Counted from the stretch's first letter, positions 19,653-45,972 are shown. The stretch: 64,000 bases of DNA from Arcobacter aquimarinus (GCF_013177635.1 NZ_CP030944.1:1674001-1738000), one strand, 5' to 3'. Notes: a model not told the origin generated them from the sequence alone. Program-made: numbers and translations.

Positions 19653-19765
19653 GAACTTCTCCTTATTATTAAAGATTTTTAATATTATAACCAATTAATT
19701 TCGGATTAGTAATGTATAGAATCAAGATTTGTAGGAATATATTTTTAAAAATAATAATTTATATA

Positions 19766-26624: not shown

Positions 26625-27037
26625 GCTTTTTTCCCATTTTTTGTTCTAAAACATCCAAGCTGGCAATGACTAACTTGAATATCACTATTTTTTACAGTTG
26701 AACCAACTGTTTTTAAAGTAGATCTTTTTGCTTCATCCCACAACACTTTGCATTCTAAAGTTTTATGTCCCATATAATTTTGTTTTAATCTATTATAAAC
26801 TTGAATATTTGGGTCTTGAAATCTTAATTTTCCAAAAACACCAAGTTCACAATTTGTGATTCTTATGCCCATACTTTTAGTAATTGTACTCATTTCTTTG
26901 GGTTTTTTACCTATAAGTCTTGCCACTTTAAAAGCTTTCAGACAAGATAATTTACCATCTTCATCTAAATTTGTTAATAACAATTCTTTTTGAATTTCAT
27001 CTAAACTTATAACTATATTATCATCTATACTAGACAT
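26621..27037 (-). CDS. unrecognised protein with two CxLGxF motifs, fdh operon
   Basis: A 138-aa cytoplasmic protein I cannot name. The motif C-x-L-G-x-F occurs twice, in ITNCELGVFGKL (~60-71) and VSHCQLGCFRTK (~122-133), each preceded by a small winged-helix-like stretch (LIGKKPKEMSTITKSMG in the first). The paired cysteines could handle sulfur, molybdopterin or a metal. It overlaps fdhD by 8 bases and the desulfurase-like gene by 4, so it is translated with both. Confidence 0.7.
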   Translation of the reverse strand: MSSIDDNIVISLDEIQKELLLTNLDEDGKLSCLKAFKVARLIGKKPKEMSTITKSMGIRITNCELGVFGKLRFQDPNIQVYNRLKQNYMGHKTLECKVLWDEAKRSTLKTVGSTVKNSDIQVSHCQLGCFRTKNGKKA

Positions 27038-27860
27038 CTATTCTTCCACTATGAGTATAAACATTCATTTTATTTCCTCTTGCAAATCCAATAAGTGTAA
27101 TTCCGTGTTCATTTGCTGATTTTATTCCTTGAAAAGTAACTGCAGCTTTTGAAACAACTATTGGAATTCTATGCATTACACATTTTACAACCATTTCCAT
27201 AGATAATCTACCAGTTGCATATAAAACAGATTTTCTAATATCTTTTTTATTTATACTTGCAAGTCCCACAACTTTATCAATAGCATTGTGCCTTCCAATA
27301 TCCTCAGCAACAAAAATCTCACCATCTTCTAATACTAATTCAGCTTTATGAACACATCCTGTATTATCAAAAAGCTTAGAAGAGGTATTGAATAATTTCA
27401 TATTTGATAAAATATTTTTTACACTTACCTTATAATCAGTATTTATAAATGAACAATCAAAAACTTTTTCAGCATTTCCAGTAACTCCAATACAACATCC
27501 TGAAGTTAAAGTTTTTTCTTTAAATAAATTTGCATACCCCTCATCACTAACATTTGCAATTACTTCAACTTTTAATCCATCTTCACTTATAACTATTGAT
27601 TCAACATCATCAAAACTTTTTATAACAGCTTCACTAAGTAAAAAGCCTAAAATATGTGCATCTTGATGTTGTGCGATACTCATAACTGATAAAAATTTAT
27701 TTCCATTTAAAAAGAATTCTATTTTATCCTCTTTTATAACATAATCTTCAACTACTTCCATCCCATCTTCATAAAATTTTTCTACGATTATCTCTTTTGT
27801 GTAATCATCTAAATTATCATGAAAAAGGGAGAAGTTTTCACTTCTCATAGCTCTTGTCAT
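27030..27860 (-). CDS. fdhD: formate dehydrogenase accessory sulfurtransferase FdhD
   Basis: FdhD passes sulfur from a cysteine desulfurase to the bis-MGD cofactor before it enters formate dehydrogenase. The 276-aa protein shows LTSGCCIG with the functional cysteines (~140), AEDIGRHNAIDKVVG, LYATGRLSMEMVVKC and IGFARGNKMNVYTH. It overlaps fdhC by 4 bases and the CxLGxF gene by 8. Confidence 0.95.
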   Translation of the reverse strand: MTRAMRSENFSLFHDNLDDYTKEIIVEKFYEDGMEVVEDYVIKEDKIEFFLNGNKFLSVMSIAQHQDAHILGFLLSEAVIKSFDDVESIVISEDGLKVEVIANVSDEGYANLFKEKTLTSGCCIGVTGNAEKVFDCSFINTDYKVSVKNILSNMKLFNTSSKLFDNTGCVHKAELVLEDGEIFVAEDIGRHNAIDKVVGLASINKKDIRKSVLYATGRLSMEMVVKCVMHRIPIVVSKAAVTFQGIKSANEHGITLIGFARGNKMNVYTHSGRIDV

Positions 27861-28831
27861 GCCACTTTTCCTTTTTTATTTTCAATATCAGCCAATACAT
27901 CAGGTGCAAGTTGCTCTAAATGTTCTCTTGGATATTTTCCTGTAATTAAACCTTTTAAATTACCTTTTACAGCAACTAAAGCAGAATATACAAAATCCAT
28001 TAAGAAAAACATTATTAAAACACTAGACCCAAAATGAACATAAAGTAATGCTCTTTTAAACTGAATAAATTGTGCATGAGTATATGCATCTGGATGTAAA
28101 AACCAAATTAAAAAACCACTTGTTAATAAACCTGCCCCCATAGCAACAAATACTATAAAAATAATTCTTTTCATAGGTTTATATTGACCTGGTAACACAA
28201 GTTTAGCTAACAAACTATTTTTTGATAATAATTTCACATCTTTAAAAGCTATAATACTCATTAACAACCATATAGGAAACCATACTAACCCTGTAACTTC
28301 ATGGGTTCCACGTAAAATATATGGAATATATCCACCCTCACTTCTTAAACTCCAAGTTATGTTGAATCCTGTAATTATTAAAGTAATAACTATAAAAACA
28401 TTCAACCAAATTATAGTTCGATGAAACAATGAAAATACTTCTATTTGGTCATTTGGATTTTTTATAACAGCTTCTTTTCTTCCACTAATTGTGTACATTA
28501 CACAAAAAATAGCAATTTCAGCTACGAAAACCCACCAAATATAAAGTTGTCTTTCATTACTTGCTCTGATAATTTCAGGAGCAATTGCTTCATAATTTGG
28601 TCCAAATGCTGCATTTACCATAGCTTTATAATTAGAATCTGGAGGAGTAATAACTCCATCCAAATTTCCGCCTGTAATTATATGAATTGTATATTTTATT
28701 AAATATTCCCAATCTATAATCATTAGAAAATTAATAAATACAAATCCTACTAATCCAAGCCCAAGAAGAGTGAAAATATATGCCTTATTTTTTTCAAAAA
28801 ATGAGCTATTTTCCATATTATTTCCTACCAT
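27857..28831 (-). CDS. fdhC: formate dehydrogenase cytochrome b subunit
   Basis: Inner-membrane di-haem cytochrome b (gamma subunit), 324 aa, passing electrons from formate to the quinone pool. Four C-terminal membrane helices carry candidate haem histidines (LFHRTIIWLNVF, LRGTHEVTGLVWFP, LLYVHFGSSVLIMF). An extra N-terminal helix and ~70-residue periplasmic segment, plus another helix near 93-113, are typical of epsilonproteobacterial FdhC. Overlaps fdhB by 7 bases. Confidence 0.93.
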   Translation of the reverse strand: MVGNNMENSSFFEKNKAYIFTLLGLGLVGFVFINFLMIIDWEYLIKYTIHIITGGNLDGVITPPDSNYKAMVNAAFGPNYEAIAPEIIRASNERQLYIWWVFVAEIAIFCVMYTISGRKEAVIKNPNDQIEVFSLFHRTIIWLNVFIVITLIITGFNITWSLRSEGGYIPYILRGTHEVTGLVWFPIWLLMSIIAFKDVKLLSKNSLLAKLVLPGQYKPMKRIIFIVFVAMGAGLLTSGFLIWFLHPDAYTHAQFIQFKRALLYVHFGSSVLIMFFLMDFVYSALVAVKGNLKGLITGKYPREHLEQLAPDVLADIENKKGKVA

Positions 28832-29418
28832 CCGTATGAATCAGTGGCAATACCCTTACCTTGAGTAGTAGCTCTATATGTTTTTATTAAAGCAACTTCA
28901 TCAGCATCACCTACAAGTAAGGCTTTTGTTGAACACATAGCTGCACACATAGGTACTTTACCTTCACTAATTCTATTTTGTCCATATTTATGGAACTCTT
29001 CAGGAGAGTTTGTCTCTTCAGGACCTCCTGCACACATAGTACATTTATCCATTTTTCCTTTTGTTCCAAATGCACCATCCCTTGGGAATTGTGGAGCACC
29101 AAAAGGACAAGCGAATAGACAATATCCACAACCTATACATTTATCTTTATCATGTAAAACAATACCATCTGTTCTAATGTAAAAACAATCTGTTGGACAT
29201 ACTTGTTGACAAGGAGCATCACTACAATGCATACAAGCCATAGATAAAGAGATTTCTTTACCTACAACACCCTCATTCACAGTGATTACTTTTCTTCTAT
29301 TAACTCCAACTGGAACTTCATGAGCCTCTTTACAAGCTACAACGCAACCATTACAATCAATACATAAGTTTTCATCACAATAAAATTTCATTTTTGAAAA
29401 ATCTACAGTTTTACTCAT
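28825..29418 (-). CDS. fdhB: formate dehydrogenase iron-sulfur subunit
   Basis: Electron-transfer subunit of 197 aa with four cysteine clusters for [4Fe-4S] centres: CIDCNGCVVACKEAH (~20-34), CMHCSDAPCQQVCPTDC, CIGCGYCLFACPFG and CTMCAGG with CAAMC. It links FdhA to cytochrome b. The C-terminal membrane anchor of E. coli FdnH is missing, so FdhC must hold it. Starts 10 bases after fdhA. Confidence 0.95.
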   Translation of the reverse strand: MSKTVDFSKMKFYCDENLCIDCNGCVVACKEAHEVPVGVNRRKVITVNEGVVGKEISLSMACMHCSDAPCQQVCPTDCFYIRTDGIVLHDKDKCIGCGYCLFACPFGAPQFPRDGAFGTKGKMDKCTMCAGGPEETNSPEEFHKYGQNRISEGKVPMCAAMCSTKALLVGDADEVALIKTYRATTQGKGIATDSYGW

Positions 29419-29428
29419 AACTACTCTC

Positions 29429-32230
29429 CTATGCTCTTTCTATTCTTACCAAAGAACATTTAGTCTCTGGACAAGAAGTCTGTTGGTCGTAACCATAACT
29501 TGTAACTTGGTTTGAACTTTCACCAAGTCCAAAAGGTGCAGTTTGTGCAGGATATCTATCTACTAAACTTTCACCACTCCAAACTCCTGAGAAATTTTGA
29601 GGTAAGAACACTGAATTCTCATCTACTCTTAAACTATATTTACATTTAATTTTGATTTTTCCTCCACCAGTTCCATAAACCCACATCATTTCATTATCTT
29701 TAAGTCCAAGTTTTCCAGCTAAAGTTGGATGTAATTCTCCATACATTTCACCTGAAAGTTCTGATAAATATTTAGATGCTCTTGTTTCTGTTCCTGTTCC
29801 CATATGTTCAACAAGTCTTCCTGAAACAATATTGATTGGATAATCTTTCAACCAATCTTGTGCATTTTGTTCACTTTCATATCTAACATCAACTCTAAAG
29901 TGGTTAAGTTTATCTTTGATTGCTGGATATTTAGATACTAAATCTGGTCTAAATGTGTGTAATGGTTCTCTATGTTTTGGAATTGGATCAACAAATTCCC
30001 AAACAATAGTTCTTGCACGTGCATTTCCATAAGGAGCAAGTCCCGCTTGAAGTGCATATTTTACTAAAATTCCACTATCATCATTTTTCCAGTTTTTACC
30101 TTCAACTAATTTTTTCTCATCTTCAGTTAAAGTAATTCCTGCTAATTCTTCAATATTTTTAGCTGTAATCTCATCGTATCCACCTTTGATTCTTGAACCA
30201 ACAGGTGCAGAACCATCAGCTGCTAACAAGCTTTTTCCATCTCTTTCAACACCAAATCTTGTTCTAAATCCCATACCACCTTGAGAAACTGGTAAATTAA
30301 TATTATATAAAACTGGGCTTCCAGGATGTGATTCATCCCAACAAGGCCAAGGTAATCCATAATACTCTTTTTCAGTTACGCCTCTTCCTTTTAATGAAGT
30401 AGAGTTAAATAGATGCCAATTTTCTTGATGTTTTTTAATTCTTTCAGCCGTTCTTCCTTGCATTCCAATAGTTTTTAATGCTTTTGCAATTTCGTTTGTT
30501 GCATCTTCTGGCCAAGTAAATTTATCACCTTTACCCATACCTGCAATAAATTCATTATAGAATCCCATTCTTTTTGCAAAGTCAAATAAAATATCATGGT
30601 CAGTTCTTGATTCATATAATGGCTCAACAACTTTAGTTCTCCATTGTGCAATTCTTGAAGTATTTACAACTGTTCCTTCTGTTTCAACTTGTGAAGCAGC
30701 AGGTAATAAGAACATATTATCCTTTCTTGTTGTAATAACAGCAGCATCATTTACATAAGGATCAATAAATACAACTAATTCTAAATTATCTAAAGCCTCT
30801 TTTACTTTATGTGTTTGAGTAATAGTTGAAATACCATTTCCAATACAAACTAATGCTTTTAAAGGAGTTCCTGCGTTATTTTTAGCATTTGCATCATCAA
30901 CAACATTATGAATCCATAAAGATAAACTATTACCTTTTGCTTGCATCATTTCAGGAGCTTTAAATCTTCCTTTTAACCATTCATAATCAACTTTCCATTG
31001 TTTTGCAAAGTATTTCCATGAACCTTCAGCTAATCCATAATATCCTGGTAATGTATCAGCAAGACAACCCATATCAGTTGAACCTTGAACATTATCATGA
31101 CCTCTTAAAATATTACATCCACCACCTGGTTTTCCTAGGTTTCCAAGAGATAATTGCATGATTGAACCAAGTCTTGTATTTGATGAACCAATTGTATGCT
31201 GTGTCCATCCTTGATTCCAAATTAAACATCCTGGTTTTGCACTTGCAAAAGCTGTTGCTGCTTGAATTAAAATCTCTTTAGGACATCCTGTTATATCTTC
31301 TACGTGCTCAGGAGTATACTCTTCACACTCTTTGAAAATATCATCCATTCCAAAAACTCTTTGTTCAATAAATGATTTATCGTACCAATTATTTTCTCTA
31401 ATAAGTCTAATAATTCCGTAAAGGAATGCTATATCTGTACCTGTTCTGATTCTACAATAAAGATCTGCTTTAGCAGCAGTTTTAGTAAATCTTGGATCTA
31501 CAACTATAATTTTTGCACCATTTTGCTCTTTTGCTTTCAAAATATGTTGCATAGCAATAGGATGGTTCGCAGCAGGATTAGCACCCATAATTATAATTGC
31601 TTTTGAGTTTTGCATATCACCTAAATGATTTGTCATAGCTCCATAACCCCATGTATTTGCCACACCGGCAACTGTTGGACTATGTCAAATTCTAGCTTGG
31701 TGATCTATGTTGTTTGTTCCAAACATTGCTGCAAATTTTCTAATATAATAAGCTTGCTCATTACTTACTTTTGCAGATCCTAAAAATTGAATTGCATCTG
31801 GACCAAATTTCTCTCTTAAAGCTACTAACTTATCAGTAATTTTACTCATAGCATCATCCCATGAGATTCTATTCCATTTTCCAGCTACTTTTTCAATAGG
31901 ATATTGTAATCTATTTGTTGCTCTGATTTTATCAATCATATCAGCACCTTTACAACAATGTCCACCATGACTAATTGGATGGTCTTGAGCAACTTCTTGT
32001 CTAACCCATACACCATTATGAACTTCAGCGATAACACCACAACCAACTGAACAATGCGAACAAATAGTCTTAATCAATTTTGAACCAGGGAAAGGGTTTC
32101 TAACCTCTTCTTCTGTTGCATTTCTTAAAACTTTTTCTGTACTTGCAAAGGCAGATGTTGCTGTTACTGCTGTTGCAAGTGAAGCCATCTTAAGAAAACT
32201 TCTTCTTCCAAAGCTTTTCAGCATTTCCAT
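29429..32230 (-). CDS. fdhA: selenocysteine formate dehydrogenase, catalytic subunit
   Basis: Periplasmic molybdenum/tungsten bis-MGD enzyme oxidising formate to CO2; 933 aa. An in-frame TGA at 31687-31685 falls at residue 182 in HQARI-U-HSPTV, exactly where formate dehydrogenases carry Sec, and both flanks are in frame and conserved. A SECIS-like hairpin follows. Tat signal GRRSFLKMASLA; [4Fe-4S] cysteines CSHCSVGC and HCCKGADM; later GTGTETRASKYLSEL and the MGD-binding C-terminal domain. AGGAGG precedes ATG 32230. The selenium genes at 41.5-46 kb provide the decoding machinery. Confidence 0.96.
31657..31671 (-). promoter_or_regulatory. SECIS-like hairpin in fdhA
   Basis: Reading the minus strand, TTGCC-GGTGT-GGCAA starts 13 bases after the UGA. 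Stem length, spacing and the GGU in the apical loop resemble the E. coli fdhF bacterial SECIS bound by SelB. Confidence 0.7.
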
Positions 32231-32507: not shown

Positions 32508-32576
32508 CCCCTTTAAAAATTTATAAAACTCTTAAAGGGACTTTTTATTCCTAAATTATCTATTTAATTTAGGAAT
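32508..32576 (-). repeat. two consecutive hairpins between the TorD-like and Tat-peptide genes
   Basis: A 12-bp perfect stem with 6-base loop (32547-32576) overlaps the last codons of the TorD-like gene. A second stem, CCCTTTAA / TTAAAGGG (32532-32539 with 32509-32516), follows. Neither is followed by a good T-run on the minus strand, so they look like mRNA processing or stabilising elements within the operon rather than a full terminator. Confidence 0.5.
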
Positions 32577-33167
32577 ATCCAAATAAGCTCTTTCAAAATT
32601 ACAGAAATTAGCAAGTATTACTCCAACTTGACTATAAATTTTGCTAGAACTTCCTATTAATTTATAAAATAATTCATCACAATAAGGATTTATTACCTCT
32701 TTAAATAACTCTTTTTGTAAATCTTCTTTAATCTCTTCTTTGATTTGTTGCTCTAATAAATAAGAAGCTAATGTAAAAATAAAACCATAGTGATCTTCAG
32801 GAGCTTTAAATGAGTTTTCATCTCTTCTAATTTTAGTTTTAGCTAATACATCTTTTACTTTTAATTGCATCAAGCCACCCTCTCTTTGTTCATGATACCA
32901 AGATGCACTCAATGATACAAACTCTCCAAAAGGAACTATAAACAACTCTTGATAATCAATATACAATTTATCAAAACCATTAGTTTCTAAATAATTCAAA
33001 ATCTCTTTTGCGGCAATACAAACATCTTCATCAAAAGAGTTAGTAGAAATAATCTGTAATGCCTCTTTCAATTCTTTGTTTGAATTTTTTACATACTCTT
33101 CAACAAACAATAAAGATAAAGTGTTATACAAAAAAGCCCTAGCTTTATTTATTTCTACGTTATGCAT
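32556..33167 (-). CDS. TorD/DmsD-family chaperone for formate dehydrogenase
   Basis: All-helical 203-aa cytoplasmic chaperone that would bind the FdhA Tat signal and hold the enzyme for cofactor insertion. The conserved APEDHYGFIFTLASYLLEQQ (~117-136) corresponds to the family E-P-D-H motif, and YIDYQELFIVPFGEFVSLSASWY is also typical. It overlaps the ferredoxin gene by 8 bases and precedes the Tat-peptide gene. Confidence 0.87.
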   Translation of the reverse strand: MHNVEINKARAFLYNTLSLLFVEEYVKNSNKELKEALQIISTNSFDEDVCIAAKEILNYLETNGFDKLYIDYQELFIVPFGEFVSLSASWYHEQREGGLMQLKVKDVLAKTKIRRDENSFKAPEDHYGFIFTLASYLLEQQIKEEIKEDLQKELFKEVINPYCDELFYKLIGSSSKIYSQVGVILANFCNFERAYLDIPKLNR

Positions 33168-34833: not shown

Positions 34834-34851
34834 AAACTATGCCCTTTTTTA

Positions 34852-34867
34852 GTAAAAAATATTTTAC
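34852..34867. promoter_or_regulatory. palindrome GTAAAA-N4-TTTTAC over the fdh operon start
   Basis: Perfect 6-base arms. With the minus-strand -10 at 34877-34872, the predicted transcription start (~34865) falls within this palindrome, a position expected for repression. The same motif recurs at 34906, 41424 and 42791. Confidence 0.45.
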
Positions 34868-34905
34868 CTATTTTATAGCTATAAAAATTAATTTGAACTT
34901 AATCA

Positions 34906-34921
34906 ATAAAATATTTTTTAC
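34906..34921. promoter_or_regulatory. second copy of the GTAAAA-type palindrome, before the binding-protein operon
   Basis: ATAAAA-N4-TTTTAC differs from the 34852 copy by one arm base and lies 54 bases from it centre to centre, about 38 bases upstream of the binding-protein ATG. The inverted 15-base match to the first copy is GTAAAAAATATTTTA. Confidence 0.4.
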
Positions 34922-34958
34922 CTTTTTACTTTAAAGCTTATTTTTTGTAAACTTTCTC

Positions 34959-36107
34959 ATGTCAAAAAAACTATTTATATTTACTTCTATCTTTATTCTA
35001 TTTTATTTATTTATAAAAGATGATGTTTTTGAAGATAAAACTATTTCAATTGGAACATCTATCCCAAATACTGGAATTATAAAATCTTGGGGAGAAGCTG
35101 TTTACAGTGGTGCAAATGCTTATTTTTCTTATACCAATGAAAACAATATAATAAAAAATAAAAAGATAAATTTTTTAGTTTATGATGATAAATATGAACC
35201 TGAATTAACCTATGAAAATACTCAAAAATTAATTTATAAAGATAAAGTTTTTGCTCTTTTTGGTTTTGTAGGAACTCCAACAGTTAAAAGAGTTTTACCT
35301 ATTTTATATGATGAAAACATTCCATTTTTTTCATCTTTTACAGGAGCTTCTTTTTTAAGAGACGAAAAAAATAAAAACTTTATAAATTTTAGAAGTTCTT
35401 ATGAGCAAGAGATAGAGACTTTAATAAATTATTTAAATAGTATAAAAAAATTAAATAAGATTGCAGTTTTTTATCAAAATGATGATTATGGTGAAGAGGG
35501 GTATATCTCTTTAATAAACTCTTTAAAACAAAAAAATCTGAAACTTATAGCAGAAGGTTCCTATAAAAGAAATACTCTTTCAATAAATCACGCTTTTAAT
35601 GAAATAGAGGATGCAAAACCTGAAGTTATTTTTATGATAGGAGCATATAAAACAAACTCTTTATTTATAAAAAAAGCAAAAGAAAATGAAAATCTAAAAG
35701 ATGCAATATTTTGTACTATCTCTTTTGGTGATGCAAATTCAATTGTAAAAGAGTTAGAAAATTTAAATTCAAATACTAAAAACATAATCTTTTCTCAAGT
35801 AGTTCCTAGTTACACAAACAAAAATCTTCCTGTGGTTATTGAGTATCAAGAACTTATGAAAAAATATTATCCAAATAATGAATTAGGATTTTTATCTTTT
35901 GAAGCTTTTTTATCTTCAAAAATTTTAGTAAATGCAATATCAAGAATAAAAGGAGAAATTACAAGAAGTAAATTTTTGTATATGTTAAAAACTACCCCTA
36001 CAAATCTTCTTGAAGGGATTCCTTTAGCTTATAATCAAACTCAATTATTAAATAAAACCTATCTTTTTGAGTATAAAAATAATGAATTTATTGAGATTGA
36101 AAAATGA
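34959..36107 (+). CDS. periplasmic ligand-binding protein (type 1, LivJ-like), sensor partner
   Basis: A 382-aa type 1 periplasmic binding protein. A short N-terminal hydrophobic segment (~5-20) exports or anchors it. ISIGTSIPNTGIIKSWGEAVYSGANAYF, LFGFVGTPT, PFFSSFTGASFLRD and IAVFYQNDDYGEEGY are family landmarks; the class binds branched-chain amino acids, amides, urea or aromatic acids. No ABC permease or ATPase genes are nearby. Instead it overlaps a histidine kinase by four bases (ATGA), so it probably serves as the kinase's ligand receptor. Confidence 0.87.
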   Translation: MSKKLFIFTSIFILFYLFIKDDVFEDKTISIGTSIPNTGIIKSWGEAVYSGANAYFSYTNENNIIKNKKINFLVYDDKYEPELTYENTQKLIYKDKVFALFGFVGTPTVKRVLPILYDENIPFFSSFTGASFLRDEKNKNFINFRSSYEQEIETLINYLNSIKKLNKIAVFYQNDDYGEEGYISLINSLKQKNLKLIAEGSYKRNTLSINHAFNEIEDAKPEVIFMIGAYKTNSLFIKKAKENENLKDAIFCTISFGDANSIVKELENLNSNTKNIIFSQVVPSYTNKNLPVVIEYQELMKKYYPNNELGFLSFEAFLSSKILVNAISRIKGEITRSKFLYMLKTTPTNLLEGIPLAYNQTQLLNKTYLFEYKNNEFIEIEK

Positions 36108-37693
36108 AAAATTTTTTTAAAAAACTTTTCATCTATTTTGATGAATTAAACTTCAATTACAAAACAGCTTTTTTAGTTTTCATAATTGCAGGTGGGATGA
36201 TATGTATAATTATCCTATCACAAATATCAATTTTTACTATGAAACAAGATTTTGATACTTTATTTGATAAAAGAACAAAAAGTTTAATGCAACTTGAAAA
36301 TATAAAAGATTCATATAAAGTAAATCTTCAAGATACTTTACTTGATTTTGAAAAAGAACAAATAAGCCATACTCAAGCAATAGAAGTTCTATTTTTAGCC
36401 CAAGAGATTATAGACAAAAATTGGGATTTGTACAAACAACAAATAGAACTAAAAAATAAAGAGTTATTAACCACTTTCATAAAAACTTTTATTGTAAAAG
36501 AAGAGAATTATTATGAAAACAAAGCATTGAAAAACTCTATTATGGAAAATATAAATAAGAAAAAAGAGATTATAAAAAAAGAGATTGAAAAGATAAATCA
36601 ACACATAGATTATAAAAAATTTTCAAATATAAATCTTGAAATAAATGCTATTTCAATCTATCTTACAAGTTTGATAAATTATGATTTAAATCTTGCAATA
36701 AATGAAAAAAGAAACACAGATAAGATTTTTAATGTAATTATTATTTTTTCAATTATCTCTATTTTTATAGTATTTCTATTTTCTGTTATTTTATCTTTAT
36801 TAATTATTGATAATTTTAGGAAACTACATAATTCTCTTGAACATAAGGTAAAAGAAAAAACAAAAGAATTACAAGAATTAAATAACTATCTTGAAATAAA
36901 AATTTCAAAAGAGGTAGCTCAAAATAGAAAAAAAGATATTATTATGTTTCAACAAGCAAGATTTGCTTCTTTAGGTGAAATGCTAAATAACATAGCTCAT
37001 CAGTGGCGTCAACCTTTAGGTTCAATCACTATGATTATTCAAAGTTTTCAAACAAAAATGTCTTTGGGAAAATTAACTGCTTCATTTGTAGATGAAAAAG
37101 TAAATGACGCCCTACTTTTAGCATCTAATATGTCAAACACTTTAGATGATTTTAGAAATTTTTTCTCACCTAATAAAATAAAAAGTCAATTTTATATCAA
37201 AAATTGTTTAGAACACTCTATTGAATTATCAAAATATTTTTTAAATCAGGAAAATATTCAAGTTATATTAAAAATTAGAAATAATGTAAAAATAGATAGT
37301 TATTACAATGAACTTTCTCATGTATTTTTGAATCTTATCTCAAACTCAAAAGATGCTTTAACTTCTAATGTTGACAAAAATGATAGAATTATAAAAATTG
37401 TTGTAAATAGATTTAAAAATCATCTTGTTATAAATTTTGTTGATAATGGTGGAGGAATTCCAAAAGAGATTTTGCCAAAAATTTTTGAACCTTATTACAC
37501 TACAAAATATAAAAGTGCAGGAACTGGTATCGGACTTTATATGTCAAAACAGATAATCGAAAAACATATGAATGGAGAGATTTTATATAAAAATATTTTT
37601 TATAAAATAAAAGATGACAGGGTTTTTTCATGCTCTTTATTTACAATAAAAATACCACTAAATCAAACAAACGGAAATGAAAATGAAAAATAG
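36104..37693 (+). CDS. membrane sensor histidine kinase (HQWRQPL type)
   Basis: Kinase of 529 aa with TM1 (~20-45), an extracytoplasmic helical domain (~46-205), TM2 (~207-232) and a coiled coil. The phosphoacceptor is His299 in NNIAHQWRQPLG, and the ATPase boxes are NLISNSKDAL, VDNGGGIP, FEPYYTTK and GTGIGLYMSKQII. The helical periplasmic domain is a plausible docking site for the binding protein encoded just upstream. It overlaps the response-regulator gene by 17 bases. Confidence 0.92.
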   Translation: MKNFFKKLFIYFDELNFNYKTAFLVFIIAGGMICIIILSQISIFTMKQDFDTLFDKRTKSLMQLENIKDSYKVNLQDTLLDFEKEQISHTQAIEVLFLAQEIIDKNWDLYKQQIELKNKELLTTFIKTFIVKEENYYENKALKNSIMENINKKKEIIKKEIEKINQHIDYKKFSNINLEINAISIYLTSLINYDLNLAINEKRNTDKIFNVIIIFSIISIFIVFLFSVILSLLIIDNFRKLHNSLEHKVKEKTKELQELNNYLEIKISKEVAQNRKKDIIMFQQARFASLGEMLNNIAHQWRQPLGSITMIIQSFQTKMSLGKLTASFVDEKVNDALLLASNMSNTLDDFRNFFSPNKIKSQFYIKNCLEHSIELSKYFLNQENIQVILKIRNNVKIDSYYNELSHVFLNLISNSKDALTSNVDKNDRIIKIVVNRFKNHLVINFVDNGGGIPKEILPKIFEPYYTTKYKSAGTGIGLYMSKQIIEKHMNGEILYKNIFYKIKDDRVFSCSLFTIKIPLNQTNGNENEK

Positions 37694-38345
37694 AGATTTA
37701 AATATCTTACATAATTTTAATGTCCTCTATCTTGAAGATGATGATAGTTTATTAAAACATACAACTGATGTTTTAGAGGATTTTATAAATCATATATATA
37801 CAGCGAAAACATCAAAAGAGGCTTTAGATATTTTATTAAATAAAAAAATTGATGTGATTATCTCAGATATTTTACTAAAAGATGAAAATGGAATAGATTT
37901 TTTAAAACATATAAAAAGTAAAAATATCAATGTTCCAACTATTCTTACAACTGCTCACACAGATACAAACTACTTACTTGATGCTATAAAATTAAAAGTT
38001 GAAAACTACATAGTAAAACCTATAAATATAAAAGAGTTATTAAACTCTTTACATGATGTATTACTTCCAGTAATTCAAGAAAAAGAGATAAGAAAAAACA
38101 ATAATGTAATAAAAACAATTTCAGCAATTACAGATAGTAAACAAGTAGAAATTGTGAAGTTTATTATAAATAGTTTAGATAATGAAAATCTTTTTGTAGC
38201 TTCATATACTGATATTATGGAAAACTTTTCTATTTCAAAACCTACACTAATCAAACTTTTTAAAGATTTAGCAGAAAAAAATATATTGGTAAAAATTCAA
38301 CACAAAACTTACAGATTCAATGAAAAGAGTTTAAATGACAACTAA
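37677..38345 (+). CDS. response regulator with winged-helix output domain
   Basis: A 222-aa regulator: receiver domain (~14-130) with acidic pocket LEDDDS, phosphoacceptor Asp64 in IISDILL, TTAHT and KPIN. The C-terminal ~85 residues form a helix-turn-helix (YTDIMENFSISKPTLIKLFKDLAEKNILVKI) unlike OmpR or NarL outputs. It probably controls this unit and may bind the GTAAAA-type palindromes nearby; that is inference. It overlaps the kinase gene by 17 bases and the transporter gene by 11. Confidence 0.9.
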   Translation: MKMKNRDLNILHNFNVLYLEDDDSLLKHTTDVLEDFINHIYTAKTSKEALDILLNKKIDVIISDILLKDENGIDFLKHIKSKNINVPTILTTAHTDTNYLLDAIKLKVENYIVKPINIKELLNSLHDVLLPVIQEKEIRKNNNVIKTISAITDSKQVEIVKFIINSLDNENLFVASYTDIMENFSISKPTLIKLFKDLAEKNILVKIQHKTYRFNEKSLNDN

Positions 38346-39588
38346 ATTAAAAAATATTTATAAAATCTTTGGACCAGGGATTTTGATGGCAACGGCTGCT
38401 ATTGGTGGTTCACATTTAGTTGCATCAACACAAGCAGGAGCTTTATTTGGTTGGGGTTTAGCTATTTTTATACTTTTAATAAACATTTTTAAGTACCCTT
38501 TTTTCTTAGCAAATGTTCAATATACAATGGCTACAAAAAAAAGTTTAATAGAAGGTTATGCAACTTTAGGAAATGGTTGGCTTTGGTTATTTACAGTTTT
38601 AGCTGTTATTGCTGCTGTTGTAAATACTGCTGCTGTATCAATGTTTGCAGCAAGTTTATTAGGATATTTCATACCTATTCAACTAACTTTAAATTTACTT
38701 AGTTTTATTATAATTTTTGGCTGTTTACTCATACTTATAGCAGGAAAATATCATCTTTTAAATAATGTTTCTAAAATTATTATGATAACTTTAAGTATCT
38801 CTACAATTATAGCTGTTGTTATGGCTGCTACAAAAGAAGTTACTGTTGTAGAAAATTTTATTTCTCCATCACCTTGGACACTTGCAAGTTTAGGATTTAT
38901 AGTTATTATGACAGGTTGGATGCCAGCACCAATAGAAGTTTCAAGTATTAGTTCTCTTTGGTTAAAAAGTCAGATGAAACAAGAAAGCATAAACTATAAA
39001 AATGCTTTGTTAGATTTTAATGTAGGATATTTTATAACTGCATTTTTAGCTCTATTTTTTCTAGCTCTTGGTGCTTTAGTTTTACATGGAAGTTCTTATG
39101 AGTTTAAAGATGGTATTGCATTTTCTCATCAACTTGTATCTATGTACACTTCTGTAATGGGTGAATGGTCAAGACTTCTAATAGCGTTTATTGCTTTTGC
39201 TTGTATGTTTGGAACATCTATAACTGTTATTGATGGGTATGGAAGAGCTGTAGCAGAAGCTTTTTCTTTGATAAAACGTAAAAAGTCAGCAAATAATACA
39301 AATGTTATGATATGGACAATTATTGTAGGAATAATTGGATTTTTGATAATATTATATTTTACAAGTTCTTTGCGAGCTATGCTTGATTTTGCAATGATTC
39401 TATCATTTGCAACAACTCCGATTTTTGCACTTTTAAACTACAAATTAGTAAAAAGTACAACTCTTCCAAAAGAGTTAAAAAATGGAATATTTTTAAATAT
39501 CTTGTCAATTTTTGGGCTAATATTTTTATTTGGATTTTTAGTTTTATTTATAATTTACAGATGGTTCCCATCTATTTTAGGAATCTAA
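38335..39588 (+). CDS. NRAMP-like transporter lacking the DPGN metal motif
   Basis: A 417-aa membrane protein with about 11 helices and an NRAMP-type opening IFGPGILMATAAIGGSHLVASTQAGA. Where true NRAMP proteins have DPGN, whose Asp and Asn bind Mn/Fe, this has AIGGSH (~22-27). The TM6 methionine is kept (Met196 in GWMPAPIE) but the usual MPH is MPA. The substrate is therefore probably not a classical transition metal. It ends the unit binding protein-kinase-regulator-transporter, overlapping the regulator by 11 bases, so the sensed ligand may be the substrate. Confidence 0.82.
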   Translation: MTTKLKNIYKIFGPGILMATAAIGGSHLVASTQAGALFGWGLAIFILLINIFKYPFFLANVQYTMATKKSLIEGYATLGNGWLWLFTVLAVIAAVVNTAAVSMFAASLLGYFIPIQLTLNLLSFIIIFGCLLILIAGKYHLLNNVSKIIMITLSISTIIAVVMAATKEVTVVENFISPSPWTLASLGFIVIMTGWMPAPIEVSSISSLWLKSQMKQESINYKNALLDFNVGYFITAFLALFFLALGALVLHGSSYEFKDGIAFSHQLVSMYTSVMGEWSRLLIAFIAFACMFGTSITVIDGYGRAVAEAFSLIKRKKSANNTNVMIWTIIVGIIGFLIILYFTSSLRAMLDFAMILSFATTPIFALLNYKLVKSTTLPKELKNGIFLNILSIFGLIFLFGFLVLFIIYRWFPSILGI

Positions 39589-39590
39589 AC

Positions 39591-39869
39591 TTACTTTTCA
39601 TACGCTTTTGTAGAAATTTCTACACCTTCGTATGAAGTTGTTTTTATAGCTTTTAAAATCTCATCTATTTTTAATTTTTCATCATAAACCACACTTACTT
39701 CTTTTGTATTAAGTCTTGCACTTACTTTTTGCACTCCATCAAGCTCTTTTATAGCTTTTTTTACAGCTGTTGTACAAAGTGGACAATGCATTCCTTCTAC
39801 TTTAAAAACCGAAATATTTGAAGCAAATATAAGATTTGCCAACATTAAAAATAAAATAAAAATTTTCAT
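39591..39869 (-). CDS. MerP-like periplasmic heavy-metal-binding protein
   Basis: A 92-aa protein with a signal peptide (to ~Ser17) and one heavy-metal-associated domain whose GMHCPLC motif supplies Cys29 and Cys32. In mer systems MerP hands Hg(II) to MerT; Cu or other soft metals are possible here. Encoded 3 bases after the MerT-like gene and convergent with the NRAMP-like gene. Confidence 0.87.
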   Translation of the reverse strand: MKIFILFLMLANLIFASNISVFKVEGMHCPLCTTAVKKAIKELDGVQKVSARLNTKEVSVVYDEKLKIDEILKAIKTTSYEGVEISTKAYEK

Positions 39870-39872
39870 AAT

Positions 39873-40199
39873 CTAATCCATAAAATAAGGTATTAATTCA
39901 GGGTAAAAAAGTAAAGCAATAACAACTATAAAAAATATAGAAAATAAAATATATTGTTTAAAAAGCTCTTTTTTCGTACATTTGCAAGAAATTTTTTTCT
40001 TAAAATTAAAAAAAGCAAATAAAAAAAATCCTATTGTCAAAATCGCAAGGGGAATTCTTGTGTATTCTAAAGTTGTAAAGTAAGTTAAAACTCCACTTGA
40101 AACTCCAAAAAAAAGAAATAAAAAAGCAGGTAAACAACAAAGAGTTGATAATAGTGCAGTAAAAACTGCACCAATTATCGCTAAACTATTTTTTTTCAT
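39873..40199 (-). CDS. MerT-like metal transport protein
   Basis: A 108-aa inner-membrane protein with three helices. The cysteine pair Cys21-Cys22 in TM1 (STLCCLP) and a cytoplasmic-loop CxC (Cys72, Cys74 in SCKC) reproduce the MerT arrangement for passing a soft metal inward. No MerA reductase or MerR is nearby. It overlaps the transglutaminase-like gene by four bases. Confidence 0.85.
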   Translation of the reverse strand: MKKNSLAIIGAVFTALLSTLCCLPAFLFLFFGVSSGVLTYFTTLEYTRIPLAILTIGFFLFAFFNFKKKISCKCTKKELFKQYILFSIFFIVVIALLFYPELIPYFMD

Positions 40200-41290
40200 A
40201 CTCTTTCTTGAGAAGTATATGTATAAACAAACTCTTTTGGTTTATAATAATCAAGAGCATCTTCTCCAACTTCTGCATAAGGATAACCTAACATATTTAA
40301 AGGATATTGAGCTGGTTTTGGAGTTAAAATAAAATCTCTTGCACTATTAAATGCAACCCAATTCATCTCCCAAGAACCAAAGAAATACTCTTTTGTATCT
40401 TTTAATTTTTTATCTTCATTTGTTAATTTTTCTGCAAGTCTTACTTTTGTAACATCAGCAGGGTCTGTTGGAACCCATCCTAATCCATCTACATAAAATT
40501 CAGCTCTACAATGTTGTGCACCTGTAATATCTGCAAAACCTTTGTCATTTGCTTTTCCACAAGCATTTGAGATTTTTGATTGCCCTGCTCTTATTCCAAA
40601 AATCTCTCTTGCTGGAATTCCTGCATTTCTTAATAAACAAACAAACACTGAACTAATATCTGTACATTTTCCACCATAAATTTTTTCTTCAATTGATTTT
40701 TTAGCATCACCAATTCCGCAACCAACTACACTTTCATCTCTGTACATAGTAGTAACTGTCCAATCATAAATAGCTTGTGCTTTTTCTAATGGTGTTTTAG
40801 CATTTTTAGTAATTTCATTTGCATATTTAGTCAACCCTTCTGTAACAGGGATATGTTTTGTTCCTTCTAAATATACTTTTATATCACTTGGATAGTTTGT
40901 GTTTGATGTTGCTTTTGAAAAATCTGTTGTTCTTTCTTGCATAATTACATCAAAGTTCACTTCTAATTGTGATTTTTCTTGCGATTTTTCCCATTTTACA
41001 TATAAAACTCTTGTGTCATATTCATTTTTCACAATTGTTGCTTCACTAAAGTTTCCTTTATAAGAAAAAGCAACTACTTGATGGTAACTTTCATCTTTTG
41101 GAAGTGGTACCCAAAGTTGAGTGATTTCTTGGCTTGGATTAAAAGAGTAGTTATTTGTAACACTAAATTTTCTAGGAGTTTTAGTAATTCCAAATGAATT
41201 TGTTTCCTCTTTTGCAAATGCAAAATGTGGAGCTAAAATAGCAGCACTTGATAAAGCAGCCGTTGTTTTTAAGAATGTTCTTCTTTGCAT
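40196..41290 (-). CDS. Tat-exported transglutaminase-like protein
   Basis: A 364-aa protein with a twin-arginine signal (QRRTFLK...APHFAFA, cleavage ~26). After an N-terminal beta domain comes a transglutaminase/protease-like core with an apparent triad Cys209 (GGKCTD), His260 (AQHCRAEF) and Asp276 (PTDPAD); further cysteines at ~191, 218, 244 and 261 are unusual for a periplasmic protein and could hold a metal or disulfides. Bacterial relatives are mostly peptidases or amidases. Tat export suggests it folds, or binds a cofactor, before transport. First gene of a unit with MerT and MerP. Confidence 0.82.
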   Translation of the reverse strand: MQRRTFLKTTAALSSAAILAPHFAFAKEETNSFGITKTPRKFSVTNNYSFNPSQEITQLWVPLPKDESYHQVVAFSYKGNFSEATIVKNEYDTRVLYVKWEKSQEKSQLEVNFDVIMQERTTDFSKATSNTNYPSDIKVYLEGTKHIPVTEGLTKYANEITKNAKTPLEKAQAIYDWTVTTMYRDESVVGCGIGDAKKSIEEKIYGGKCTDISSVFVCLLRNAGIPAREIFGIRAGQSKISNACGKANDKGFADITGAQHCRAEFYVDGLGWVPTDPADVTKVRLAEKLTNEDKKLKDTKEYFFGSWEMNWVAFNSARDFILTPKPAQYPLNMLGYPYAEVGEDALDYYKPKEFVYTYTSQERV

Positions 41291-41512
41291 GAGATAAAAC
41301 CTCTAATAGTTTTTGTTCTATTAAGAGATAAAGAGATTAAGTCTTTATATCAAACCATAACCTATGGTCTTTGAACTAATTGTTTGAATACTAATATATC
41401 ATTTATAAACAAAAGCTTAAAAGGTAAAAAAATATTTACTCATTTTTAACTACATTTAATCAAAGATTTGTATAATAAAATTTAAATTTCAAAAAGCTAG
41501 GAAATGCTTAAA
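41291..41512. promoter_or_regulatory. divergent regulatory region between the transglutaminase/MerTP unit and selD
   Basis: Three elements are visible. ACCATA-ACC-TATGGT (41354-41368) is a dyad next to a minus-strand -10 candidate (TATAAA), resembling the ACC...GGT dyads in MerR-family promoters. GTAAAA-N4-ATTTAC (41424-41439) is a near copy of the palindrome at the fdh operon. TATAAT (41471-41476, preceded by TTG) is a strong plus-strand -10 for selD, with a predicted start near 41483. Confidence 0.5.
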
Positions 41513-42550
41513 ATGAACAATGAATATAGGCTAACAAAATTCGTTCAAGCTGCTGGTTGAGCTGCAAAAATGGGTCCGGGTGATCTTAAACAAACTATTT
41601 GTGGTTTAACTCCAAAAGATGAAAGAATTTTAGTAGGATTTGATACAAGTGAAGATGCTAGTGTTTATCAAATAAATGATAATCAAGCAATAGTTCAAAC
41701 ACTTGATTTTATAACTCCCGTTGTAGATGACCCATATATTTATGGGCAAATAGCTGCTGCAAATGCACTTAGTGATGTATTTGCTATGGGAGCTGATGTA
41801 AAAACAGCCATGAATATAGTAGGTTTTGATAAAAAAAATATATCAAAAGAGGCTTTAGGTCTTATACTAAATGGTGGAAATGAAAAAATCAAAGAGTGTG
41901 GAGGAGTGCTTTTAGGTGGGCATACCATTGAATCACCTGAAATGTATTATGGATTATCTGTAACTGGAATGATTCATCCAAATGAGATTATTAGAAATAA
42001 TACTCCAAAGATTGGACATGTTTTAGTTTTAACAAAACCTCTTGGAATGGGTATTTTAACTACAGCTATAAAAAGAGATTTACTAGATATTAATTTAGTA
42101 AAAGAGTGTGCAAAAATAATGTCAAGTTTAAACTACTTGCCATCAAAGATTATGAGAAAATATGATGTAAGTTCTTGTACAGATATCACAGGCTTTGGTC
42201 TTATGGGACATGCTTTAGAGTGTACAAATGATTTAGTAACATTAAGTATTTCATGCAATAATGTTCCAGTAGTAAATGAAGCGATTGATTTAGCAACTAA
42301 TGATGTAATTCCTGGTGGAACAAAAAGAAATATGAAATATACAGAAGATAAAATAACATATTTAAATAATCTTCCAAACCACTGTAAAGCGATACTTTGT
42401 GATGCACAAACTTCTGGTGGTTTATTGATAGCCATGAAAGAAGATGATGCAAAAGAGTATATAAAAGAACTTGAAGAGTTAAGCTTTGGATATGCAAGTA
42501 TTATTGGAGTTGTAATTCCAAGAGGAATAACTCCTATAATTATTCATTAA
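41513..42550 (+). CDS. selD: selenide, water dikinase (selenoprotein form)
   Basis: Makes selenophosphate from selenide and ATP for Sec-tRNA synthesis; 345 aa. The gene starts at ATG 41513 (AGGA 10 bases upstream), and codon 16 is TGA (41558-41560) in the active-site loop VQAAG-U-AAKMGPGDL, where other SelD proteins have Cys or Sec. Starting at the next ATG (41570) would remove the catalytic residue and the lysine after it. GFDTSEDASVY, QTLDFITPVVDDPY and LLGGHTIESPE bind ATP/metal. The enzyme therefore needs its own product. Confidence 0.96.
41573..41585 (+). promoter_or_regulatory. SECIS-like hairpin in selD
   Basis: GGTC-CGGGT-GATC forms a short stem beginning 12 bases after the UGA, with GGU in the loop. 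Spacing and loop resemble the element in fdhA (13 bases), although the stem is weaker with one G-U pair. Confidence 0.5.
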
Positions 42551-42635: not shown

Positions 42636-42736
42636 TGGCGAGAAGACGAAGGAATCGAACCTCCCGCGGCGTATTACACATAAACCGCCAATCAGGGTTG
42701 AAGCCTGTGGTGCCCACCAGGTACACTTGTCTCCCA
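42636..42736 (-). tRNA. selC: tRNA-Sec (anticodon UCA)
   Basis: On the minus strand the sequence folds as a selenocysteine tRNA of about 100 nt. The anticodon loop CUUCAAC holds UCA between CAGG and CCUG; a long variable arm has a GGCG/CGCC stem; the T arm GGAGG-TTCGATT-CCTTC has 5 pairs; the encoded 3' end is GCCA. The acceptor helix pairs GGGAGAC with GUCUUCU; the first position next to the discriminator looks mismatched, so the 5' end is uncertain by a base. It lies between selD and selA, antisense to both. A TAATAT -10 candidate is at 42760-42755. Confidence 0.88.
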
Positions 42737-42790
42737 CTTTTTTGTAAGCAAGAAATATTACAGCAAACAATTTTAAAAACATCTGAAAGG

Positions 42791-42806
42791 GTAAAAATGA
42801 TTTTAC
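42791..42806. promoter_or_regulatory. GTAAAA-N4-TTTTAC palindrome over the selA start codon
   Basis: Perfect arms identical to the fdh operon copy (34852). It spans the selA ATG (42797) and lies upstream of the tRNA-Sec promoter on the other strand. It may be an operator or chance, since the codons MILL plus leader generate it. Confidence 0.35.
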
Positions 42807-44143
42807 TAAAATCCATTCCAAAGGTTGATAAGTTTATCACACACGAAGCTTTTGAAGGGTTATCAAAAACTTTAGTTACAAAAATCTCAAAAGAAGTTAT
42901 AGAAAATCTTAGAAATAATATTTTAAATGAAACTATCAAAGAGATAAATGAACAAAGTTTAATATCTGAAGTTTTACAAAATTATGAAAATTTAATATCA
43001 CCATCTTTAAAAAGTGTTATAAATGCAACGGGTATTATCGTTCATACAAATCTAGGAAGAAGTTTATTAGATGAAAATTCACTAAAAAAAACCATCCAAA
43101 TAGCTACAACTTACAATAATTTAGAGTATGACCTAAATGAAGGTAAAAGAGGTGAAAGGTATGCTCACATCACAAAAACTCTAAAAGCACTCACAAATTG
43201 TGAAGATGCAATAGTAGTAAACAACAATGCAAGTGCTGTTTTTTTGATTTTAAACACTTTTTGCAAAAATAAAGAAGTAGTTGTAAGTAGAGGTGAACTT
43301 GTGGAAATTGGGGGAAGTTTTAGAGTTCCTGAGGTTATGACTCAAAGTGGAGCAATTTTAAAAGAGATAGGAACTACTAATAAAACCCATCTAAGAGATT
43401 ATGAAAATGCCATAAATGAAAAAACATCTATGCTTATGAAAGTTCACAAATCAAACTACTCAATTGAGGGTTTTAGTAGTGAAGTTAGCTTTGAAGAGAT
43501 TGTAGAAGTAGCCCAAAAAAACAATATCATAGATTATTATGATATGGGAAGTGGTCATATGATTGATTTACCCTACAATCTAAATAAAAACGAACCCTCA
43601 ATTTTAGAAATTATGCAATATAATCCAAGTTTACTTAGCTTTTCAGGAGATAAACTTTTAGGAAGTGTACAAGCAGGAATCATAATAGGAAAAAAAGAAT
43701 TAATAGAAAAAATCAAAAAAAACCAACTTTTAAGAATGTTAAGAGTTGATAAAATAACTTTAGCACTTCTTGAGGATACTTTAAATTCATATCTAAAAAA
43801 TGACTTAGAACAAATACCAACATTAAAAATGCTTTTTGCATCTACTGAAACCTTAGAGCAAAGAGCAACTAAATTAAAAGAAAAAATAGAAGATATTTAT
43901 AACTGCGAAGTTATAAAAACTTCGACGATGGTAGGAGGTGGAACAACTCCAAATAAAAAGATTCCTTCTATTGCTTTATCACTAGAATACAAAAACTACA
44001 AACCAAACCAACTAGAAAAACTTTTAAGAAAAAATCTAATCATAAGCAGAATTGAAAATGAAAAAGTTTTACTTGATTTTAGAACAATTCAAGAAAATGA
44101 ACTTGAAAAATTAGAGAATATTTTGAAAGGTTTATTTAACTAA
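42797..44143 (+). CDS. selA: L-seryl-tRNA(Sec) selenium transferase
   Basis: PLP enzyme converting Ser-tRNA-Sec to Sec-tRNA-Sec with selenophosphate; 448 aa. The PLP lysine is Lys286 in SFSGDKLLGSVQAG. NATGIIVHTNLGRSLL, YNNLEYDLNEGKRGERYAH and VNNNASAVFL are family hallmarks. ATG 42797 follows AAAGG; the in-frame ATG at 42635 is rejected because the extension translates the tRNA-Sec antisense. The stop overlaps the selB ATG by one base. Confidence 0.96.
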   Translation: MILLKSIPKVDKFITHEAFEGLSKTLVTKISKEVIENLRNNILNETIKEINEQSLISEVLQNYENLISPSLKSVINATGIIVHTNLGRSLLDENSLKKTIQIATTYNNLEYDLNEGKRGERYAHITKTLKALTNCEDAIVVNNNASAVFLILNTFCKNKEVVVSRGELVEIGGSFRVPEVMTQSGAILKEIGTTNKTHLRDYENAINEKTSMLMKVHKSNYSIEGFSSEVSFEEIVEVAQKNNIIDYYDMGSGHMIDLPYNLNKNEPSILEIMQYNPSLLSFSGDKLLGSVQAGIIIGKKELIEKIKKNQLLRMLRVDKITLALLEDTLNSYLKNDLEQIPTLKMLFASTETLEQRATKLKEKIEDIYNCEVIKTSTMVGGGTTPNKKIPSIALSLEYKNYKPNQLEKLLRKNLIISRIENEKVLLDFRTIQENELEKLENILKGLFN

Positions 44144-45972
44144 TGTCAAATATTATTATAGGAACAGCAGGTCATATTGACCATGGAAAAACTGCTTTAA
44201 TTCGAGCTTTAAATGGTTTGGAAGGTGATAGTACAAATGAAGAAAAAGAAAGAGGAATTACTATTGATTTATCCTTTTCAAATATGTCTAAAGGTCAGCA
44301 AAATATAGCTTTTATTGATGTTCCAGGACATGAAAAACTTGTAAAAAATATGATTGCTGGAGCTTTTGGATTTGATTATGTGATGCTTGTAATTAGTGCT
44401 ATTGAAGGAATAAAACCCCAAACTGTTGAACATATAGAAATCATAAATTTATTAGGACTAAAAGAGATAATTGTAGTAATTACAAAAAAAGATTTAGTAA
44501 ATAAAGAAGAACTTGAGCTAAAAAAAGAGGAAATTTTAGAATTTTTAAAAGAGTTTGATTTTGAAATTAAGTTTATTTCTTGTGTCTCTATTTATGATGA
44601 AACTTCAATCGAAAAACTAAAAATTCAATTATTTAGTATAAAAAACTCAACAAAACAAGAAGAGAATTTCTTTAGATTTTATGTGGATAGAGTCTTTTCT
44701 CCAAAAGGAATAGGAACGGTTGTAACAGGAACCGTTCTTGGGAAAAAATGTCTAATTGATGAAAAAGTTTTTATTTGCCAAAATCAAAAAGAGTCAAAAA
44801 TCAAAAATATTCAAGTTCACAATCAAAATGTTCTTGAAGCAAATATCTCTTCTAGAGCTGCTTTAAACTTACAAAATGTAAATATCACCAATCTAAAAAA
44901 AGGTGATTTAATTACAAAAAAAGGTCATATTAGAGGATTTGATGGAATTGACATCTCTTTTAAATGTTTAAAAAACAAAAAACTAAACCACAATCAAACC
45001 TACAATTTGTTTATTGGAGCAAAAAAAATTGATGTAAAAGTTTTACTTTTTGATTGTATTACAAATCTTGAAACTGGATTTGCAACCTTAAAAGCAAATG
45101 AACAACTTTTTACAATATTTGGTGAAAAAATCATCTTAAGAAGTGGAAATGAGACAATTTGTGGGGGAACTATTTTAAACCCAATAATTGACCCAATGAA
45201 AAAAAATCAAAAGAAAAGATTACTTGAAGCTTTAGATAAAAAAGATTTTACAAGCGCCTATAAAGAACTTTTAGAAGCTCATAAAAAAGGTTTAGGAATT
45301 ATTTCTTCAACTCAAAGATTTGCCCTTTCTCATGAAGAAGCCATTAATTTTGCAAAAAATATGAGTGATGTTTTTATAGATGAAAAAGAGTTAGTTATTT
45401 ATCCACTTGATACGAAAAACGAGATAAAAGATTATATAAAAGAGATTTATACAAAGAATTCTTATGCCCTACTTTCAAACTCCTCAATAAACTTAAGATT
45501 AAAATGGGCAAGTCAAGCTTTTATTCAACTTTGTTTAGATGAACTTGTAAATGAAAACTTCTTAATACATGAAACATCTTTATATAAAAATGCAAATATA
45601 AAAGAGGATTTTACAAAAGATTTAGAAAATATTGTTTTACAAAGATTAAAAGATGAAGATATAGAACCAACTGCACCTTATAATATATACGATGATTTGG
45701 ATATTGATAGAAAATTAGGTGATGATATTTTAAAATCTCTTACTTCTAAAAAACAAGTAATAAGACTTCAACACAATCTTTTTATTCATTTTGAAAGTCT
45801 AAATAAAATAGTAAAAACTATGAAAGAGATTATAAAAAAAGATGGATATATAGAACTTTCAAATTTCAAACAAAGATTTGATTTAAGTAGAAAATATCTA
45901 ATAACTTATCTTGATTATTTAGATAATTATTCAGATATTAAAAAAGTAGATACTAAAAGAATTTTTAGTTAA
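44143..45972 (+). CDS. selB: selenocysteine-specific elongation factor
   Basis: GTPase delivering Sec-tRNA to UGA codons marked by SECIS hairpins; 609 aa. G1 GTAGHIDHGKTALI (~7-20), switch region RGITIDLSF, DVPGHEKLVKNMIAG and TKKD define the EF-Tu-like domain. Domains II-III follow, with four C-terminal winged helices (~360-609) for SECIS binding. Translated with selA through a TAATG overlap. Its stop shares bases with the stop of the convergent kinase gene. Confidence 0.95.
   Translation: MSNIIIGTAGHIDHGKTALIRALNGLEGDSTNEEKERGITIDLSFSNMSKGQQNIAFIDVPGHEKLVKNMIAGAFGFDYVMLVISAIEGIKPQTVEHIEIINLLGLKEIIVVITKKDLVNKEELELKKEEILEFLKEFDFEIKFISCVSIYDETSIEKLKIQLFSIKNSTKQEENFFRFYVDRVFSPKGIGTVVTGTVLGKKCLIDEKVFICQNQKESKIKNIQVHNQNVLEANISSRAALNLQNVNITNLKKGDLITKKGHIRGFDGIDISFKCLKNKKLNHNQTYNLFIGAKKIDVKVLLFDCITNLETGFATLKANEQLFTIFGEKIILRSGNETICGGTILNPIIDPMKKNQKKRLLEALDKKDFTSAYKELLEAHKKGLGIISSTQRFALSHEEAINFAKNMSDVFIDEKELVIYPLDTKNEIKDYIKEIYTKNSYALLSNSSINLRLKWASQAFIQLCLDELVNENFLIHETSLYKNANIKEDFTKDLENIVLQRLKDEDIEPTAPYNIYDDLDIDRKLGDDILKSLTSKKQVIRLQHNLFIHFESLNKIVKTMKEIIKKDGYIELSNFKQRFDLSRKYLITYLDYLDNYSDIKKVDTKRIFS

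Follow-up and report, generated by a model that had tools for sequence, protein, structure and literature searches.

A binding-protein two-component system predicted to regulate formate dehydrogenase and selenium genes in Arcobacter aquimarinus, and its optional Nramp-related transporter

Results

Gene content of the locus

The window, i.e. the whole stretch of 64,000 nucleotides that was analysed, is part of the complete 2.52-Mb genome of Arcobacter aquimarinus. It harbours a cluster of four plus-strand genes for a periplasmic binding protein (SBP), a sensor histidine kinase, a response regulator and a transporter (Table 1). An initial annotation had described the four genes as overlapping, and they do so by 4, 17 and 11 nt. 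Pfam assigns the products to Peripla_BP_6 (143 bits), HATPase_c (67 bits), Response_reg (74 bits) and Nramp (39 bits at a cutoff of 29.8), respectively. Upstream of the SBP gene and divergent from it lies a formate dehydrogenase (FDH) operon with the order polyferredoxin-like protein, TorD-like chaperone, Tat peptide, catalytic subunit, iron-sulfur subunit, cytochrome b subunit and FdhD. An in-frame TGA of the catalytic gene is read as selenocysteine; the corresponding position is a cysteine in relatives (ARICHSPTVAG versus ARI*HSPTVAG in the window). A chemoreceptor with a NIT nitrate/nitrite-sensing domain is encoded near the FDH region (17421-19694). The 3' side of the cluster is occupied by genes for an HMA, a MerT-like and a transglutaminase-like (TGase) protein on the opposite strand, followed by selD, tRNA-Sec, selA and selB. 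A longer SelA reading frame than that of Table 1 would overlap tRNA-Sec (42640-42735). A palindrome-like sequence at 42790-42807 overlaps the likely selA start codon, which may be a coincidence.

Table 1. Features of the cluster and of its neighbours, with positions counted from the first nucleotide of the window
Feature	Position	Strand	Remarks
FDH iron-sulfur subunit, cytochrome b subunit, FdhD	27030..29418	-	
FDH catalytic subunit	29429..32230	-	split by an in-frame TGA read as selenocysteine; ARI*HSPTVAG
TorD/NarJ-type chaperone	32556..33167	-	
Polyferredoxin-like protein, 557 aa	33160..34833	-	gene 1 of the FDH operon, divergent neighbour
Palindromic candidate operator AGTAAAAAATATTTTACC	34851..34868	+	between FDH operon and SBP; conserved (alignment and profile)
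Second palindrome copy GGTAAAAAATATTTTATT	34905..34922	-	inverted, weaker, closer to SBP
PBP1-type periplasmic binding protein (SBP)	34959..36107	+	Peripla_BP_6
Sensor histidine kinase	36104..37693	+	HATPase_c; TM 21-39 and 211-229; phospho-acceptor His299
Response regulator	37677..38345	+	receiver domain with Asp64; C-terminal winged-helix-like (helix-turn-helix-like) DNA-binding domain
Nramp-related LeuT-fold transporter	38335..39588	+	GGSH in TM1 (His27), GWMP in TM6 (Met196)
HMA, MerT-like and Tat-secreted transglutaminase-like (TGase) genes	39591..41290	-	divergent from selD; predicted regulon member
Palindrome copy in the TGase/selD intergenic region	41423..41440	-	3 mismatches, 16.5 bits
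SelD selenide water dikinase	41570..42550	+	predicted regulon member
SelA and SelB	42797..45972	+	likely SelA start about 42797

Binding protein, kinase and response regulator

Residues 1-19 of the SBP are hydrophobic and contain no lipobox cysteine, and the anchor looks uncleaved. The best solved relative is 4kv7 (E 6e-46), and the family assignment gives no pointer to the identity of the ligand. As the initial annotation had noted, the SBP comes without an ABC transporter: neither permease nor ATPase genes adjoin it in the window or in the mapped regions of relatives. Its proposal that the SBP is the receptor of the kinase is most likely correct, because the triad of SBP, kinase and regulator is conserved without ABC genes. 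The periplasmic domain of the kinase (about 170 residues) is modelled as helices only in a weak model (pTM 0.39), and a structure search with this model returned only kinase cores among the matches listed.

A PBP1-type protein encoded together with a kinase and a regulator defines the binding-protein-linked (TorTS-like) two-component systems, and this arrangement is present here. In the TorT-TorS-TorR system of Escherichia coli, a PBP1-type binding protein and a kinase with a helical periplasmic region are encoded beside a molybdo-enzyme operon. The triad shares the PBP1-type SBP and the adjoining molybdo-enzyme operon, and the periplasmic region of its kinase may be helical as well, but its kinase is simple and without phosphorelay, its regulator is not OmpR-like, its partner enzyme is FDH and its predicted regulon includes selenium genes. 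More distant, paralogous SBP-kinase(-regulator) units adjoin cyclophilin-GlnK or GlnK/Amt genes or a NiFe hydrogenase (L247, L252, L165); the SBP-kinase family therefore senses more than one thing.

Linkage of the triad to formate dehydrogenase

We surveyed 104 Arcobacteraceae genomes for an SBP ortholog and for a marker protein of the FDH operon. The SBP was found in 73 and the marker in 74 genomes; 72 genomes have both, 29 have neither and three are discordant (Fisher p 3e-22, uncorrected for relatedness). In 64 of the 72 genomes with both, SBP and FDH locus are divergent and less than 300 bp apart, while the gap amounts to 1.5-6.2 kb in six and the two lie on separate contigs in the remaining two. 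An additional FDH operon or a transposase-like gene intervenes in the four wide-gap genomes that were mapped (G001, G031, G066 and G078). At L138, a transposase-like gene (7986-9017) sits between FDH operon and SBP.

Five further families of the order (f16, f6, f20, f15 and f9) show the divergent layout as well, and in the Sulfurospirillum-like genomes of f20 the regulator gene is followed by selA-selB. Two loci (L137 and L155) have a local FDH that uses cysteine, yet triad and palindrome are retained. In G053, selA, selD and tRNA-Sec were not found in 1.2 Mb, corresponding to about 40 percent of the genome.

A palindrome shared by FDH, triad and selenium genes

Alignment of 31 FDH-SBP intergenic regions revealed an 18-bp palindrome of the form GGTAAAA-N4-TTTTACC (consensus RGTAAAAAATATTTTACC). 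A symmetric profile was built with the site of the window left out, and sites of at least 11 bits located at most 250 bp upstream of a gene were counted. Such sites precede Fer4 in 35/35, SBP in 33/36, TGase in 20/21, SelD in 20/22 and SelA in 4/10 cases, compared with 13/320 for other, unassigned genes; none was found at this threshold and distance upstream of FdhA, FdhB, the kinase, the regulator or the transporter. The Fer4 and SBP sites constitute the training set of the profile, whereas those of TGase and SelD are outside of it. Since Fer4 and SBP on the one hand and TGase and SelD on the other each share an intergenic region, the counts represent about two independent types of region; training of the profile drew on the first of them and not on the second.

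The palindrome stands upstream of the triad beyond the Arcobacteraceae, too. It separates selD from YedE/FdhT-YedF in f16, and from a putative selenate ABC transporter (TIGR04553, 371 bits) in some Arcobacteraceae. A variant of the palindrome precedes paralogous triads that are located away from FDH (L247, L252), which ties the site to the regulator family and is the best evidence for the identity of the binder. Similar patterns are common in these AT-rich genomes even where the triad is missing (G009, G012); a genome-wide palindrome count is not specific and was rejected as proof of the identity of the regulator.

The TGase-MerT-HMA set is divergent from selD at many loci (among L130-L160), with the palindrome common to both sides. 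It may represent a selenium-acquisition module because YedE/YedF or the putative selenate ABC transporter occupies the same place elsewhere. PhnD/C/E-type ABC genes are found near the triad in L148, L149, L161 and L166. At two of these loci (L149 and L166) the palindrome separates them from a divergently oriented selD, and the ABC binding protein of L149 belongs to TIGR04553 (putative selenate).

Fold and substrate site of the transporter

The transporter had been called NRAMP-like, which agrees with the Pfam score above cutoff, and the structure prediction that had been suggested for it gave a confident NRAMP fold (AlphaFold, pLDDT 85.7, pTM 0.86). The model matches DraNramp with Z 39.8 and EleNRMT with Z 36, closely followed by LeuT-fold amino-acid transporters, and the fold is thus modelled as NRAMP/LeuT. 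The reported replacements of the metal-binding motifs were confirmed: TM1 has AIGGSH in place of DPGN, and TM6 has TGWMPA, i.e. MPA for MPH, in which the methionine is retained and the histidine is gone. A displaced but intact DPGN, named by the initial annotation as a possible objection, was rejected, as the profile alignment is gapless and pairs GgSH with the DPSN of SiNRAT. G-x-SH and GWMP occur in 39/39 aligned relatives, with His27 and Met196 invariant, and neither DPGN nor MPH is present in any of 79 far relatives. Judged by these alignments, loss of both motifs characterises the entire subfamily and is not a peculiarity of the gene in the window, and the transporter lacks the canonical Mn/Fe site. 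Of the hallmarks of canonical Nramp/MntH (SLC11) proteins it thus shows the NRAMP/LeuT fold, but neither DPGN nor MPH.

An M-box riboswitch was detected neither in the window nor in the relatives scanned; only some NRMTs carry an M-box. The published ion sites are DxxN-A/CxxM for Nramp and DxxG-TxxA/T for NRMT (PMC8806188). The transporter resembles the NRMT magnesium transporter EleNRMT in its NRAMP fold with an altered ion site, but NRMT retains the TM1 aspartate while the transporter has GxxH-TxxM and no M-box (PMC8806188). Because of its modelled NRAMP fold without DPGN and MPH we place it in the Nramp-related group, whose members are reported to have neither motif (PMC12873925) and which, as Nramp outgroup, has been seen as a bridge to non-metal transporters (PMC4072509). 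It has in common with these proteins the LeuT/NRAMP fold, the missing motifs and a broad bacterial distribution (PMC12873925, PMC4072509); the combination of G-x-SH and GWMP is a signature of its own subfamily.

Distribution and neighbours of the transporter gene

Nine of 31 sampled Aliarcobacter genomes encode the transporter, namely 8 of the 27 with the triad SBP and, in addition, G012 (L129), which has neither triad nor FDH marker and in which the transporter stands alone between dinB-like and helicase genes. Among the more distant relatives examined, outside Aliarcobacter, the transporter never adjoins the triad. In the neighbourhood survey that the initial annotation had suggested to see whether the four genes co-occur, the triad is conserved and the transporter is not a constant member. 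The start of the transporter gene overlaps the regulator gene by 8-11 nt in the relatives measured, and its presence requires five gain or loss changes on a kinase-plus-regulator tree of 22 rows. We read it as an old insertion that was lost several times. We regard the transporter as an optional, probably co-transcribed passenger and not as the reason for the existence of the triad.

In the Arcobacteraceae genus g19 (L150, L162, L163), a transporter of just 40 percent identity is encoded by the last gene of TPP-riboswitch thiamin-salvage operons with thiM, some of which also hold tenA, thiD and thiE. In 30 of 79 far loci (L040-L094, all in the Bacteroidota part) the transporter gene is located directly 5' of lipA, in most cases no more than about 50 bp from it, and many of these 30 loci have an ECF sigma factor gene in front of it. 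No riboswitches were found near the far relatives scanned. A thiamin link was rejected for the transporter of the window itself: the window has no TPP riboswitch, and within Aliarcobacter the presence of the transporter is uncorrelated with ThiM or TPP riboswitches. A link to 5-oxoprolinase (pxpABC), an analogy based on YcsG of B. subtilis, was likewise rejected, as pxpA, though present, lies at a distance of about 950 kb and the transporter of relatives has no pxp genes beside it.

Discussion

We consider it likely that the triad is a binding-protein two-component system which regulates itself, the divergent Sec-FDH operon and a selenium supply centred on selD, possibly in response to formate, and that the transporter is a passenger. 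The divergent linkage to FDH and the palindrome at both FDH and selenium genes make regulation of both by the triad most likely. In our model, the membrane-anchored PBP1-type SBP would bind a small periplasmic ligand and dock on the kinase at its helical periplasmic domain. The kinase, to judge by its conserved residues and those of the regulator, would phosphorylate the latter, which in turn presumably binds to the observed GGTAAAA-N4-TTTTACC sites. The regulator would thereby control its own operon, the divergent Sec-FDH operon and the selD-centred genes; the direction of this control, most likely activation of FDH and selenium-supply genes, is one that we infer. Among possible ligands our best guess is formate, since FDH accompanies the triad constantly and since triad and palindrome are kept beside cysteine-type FDH.

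The same cysteine-FDH loci (L137, L155) argue against selenium as ligand. A sensor that detects a selenium oxyanion outside the cytoplasm and links selenium supply to synthesis of the selenoprotein FDH would be in agreement with a predicted regulon of selD, sometimes selA, YedE/FdhT-YedF and the putative selenate ABC transporter, and with selA-selB directly behind the regulator in f20, but given the triad and palindrome at those loci we regard it as unlikely. We are equally doubtful that the triad senses a selenium oxyanion, or formate together with selenium status, and in this way sets selenium acquisition and Sec-FDH synthesis across much of the order. The palindrome could also be the site of an unrelated regulator, with the triad, though beside FDH, acting on other genes. 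Related palindromes are indeed scattered over these AT-rich genomes, triad-less ones included; however, the palindrome is found in front of the operon of the triad itself in different families, a variant stands before paralogous triads away from FDH, and we hold an unrelated regulator to be unlikely, too.

The initial annotation had assumed a ligand-sensing system that controls solute uptake. The sensing triad is supported by our results, whereas uptake control as its purpose is not. Overlap of the cluster genes, including that of transporter and regulator in relatives, speaks for uptake via the transporter of the same operon. However, the triad's invariant partner is FDH, the transporter is patchy (8/27 SBP-bearing Aliarcobacter, five changes on the tree), G012 keeps it without the triad and the two are never together outside Aliarcobacter, so that we judge this explanation to be quite improbable. 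As to its substrate, import of a cofactor precursor (thiazole or thiamin) instead of a metal is suggested by the thiM-containing operons of g19, by lipA directly 3' in 30/79 far loci and by the missing acidic metal ligand, but the low identity of the g19 member and the lack of tracking of ThiM or TPP riboswitches in Aliarcobacter leave it a rather small chance.

Two-component systems linked to a binding protein are already known, and so are Nramp-related transporters. No such two-component system dedicated to FDH and selenium genes was found in open-access texts, including the available parts of PMC6682613 and PMC2147049. For Campylobacter jejuni, the available part of a Campylobacterota respiration review names posttranscriptional control of FDH through FdhTU (YedE/YedF) and gives no two-component regulator for FDH (PMC6682613). 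As in our predicted regulon, these are selenium accessory genes for Sec-FDH, and homologues are divergent from selD in f16; unlike the triad, FdhTU are no transcription regulators according to the same part of that review (PMC6682613).

The conserved sensor with its predicted 18-bp operator represents a directly testable regulator and a candidate sensor of formate or selenium. If the selenium reading were true, one sensor would set both selenium acquisition and Sec-FDH synthesis. The regulon prediction also provides a handle on unassigned selenium-supply genes such as TGase-MerT-HMA and the putative selenate ABC transporter. The transporter, in turn, is a clear case of a modelled NRAMP fold without the acidic metal ligand, and its neighbours elsewhere suggest links to thiamin or lipoate.
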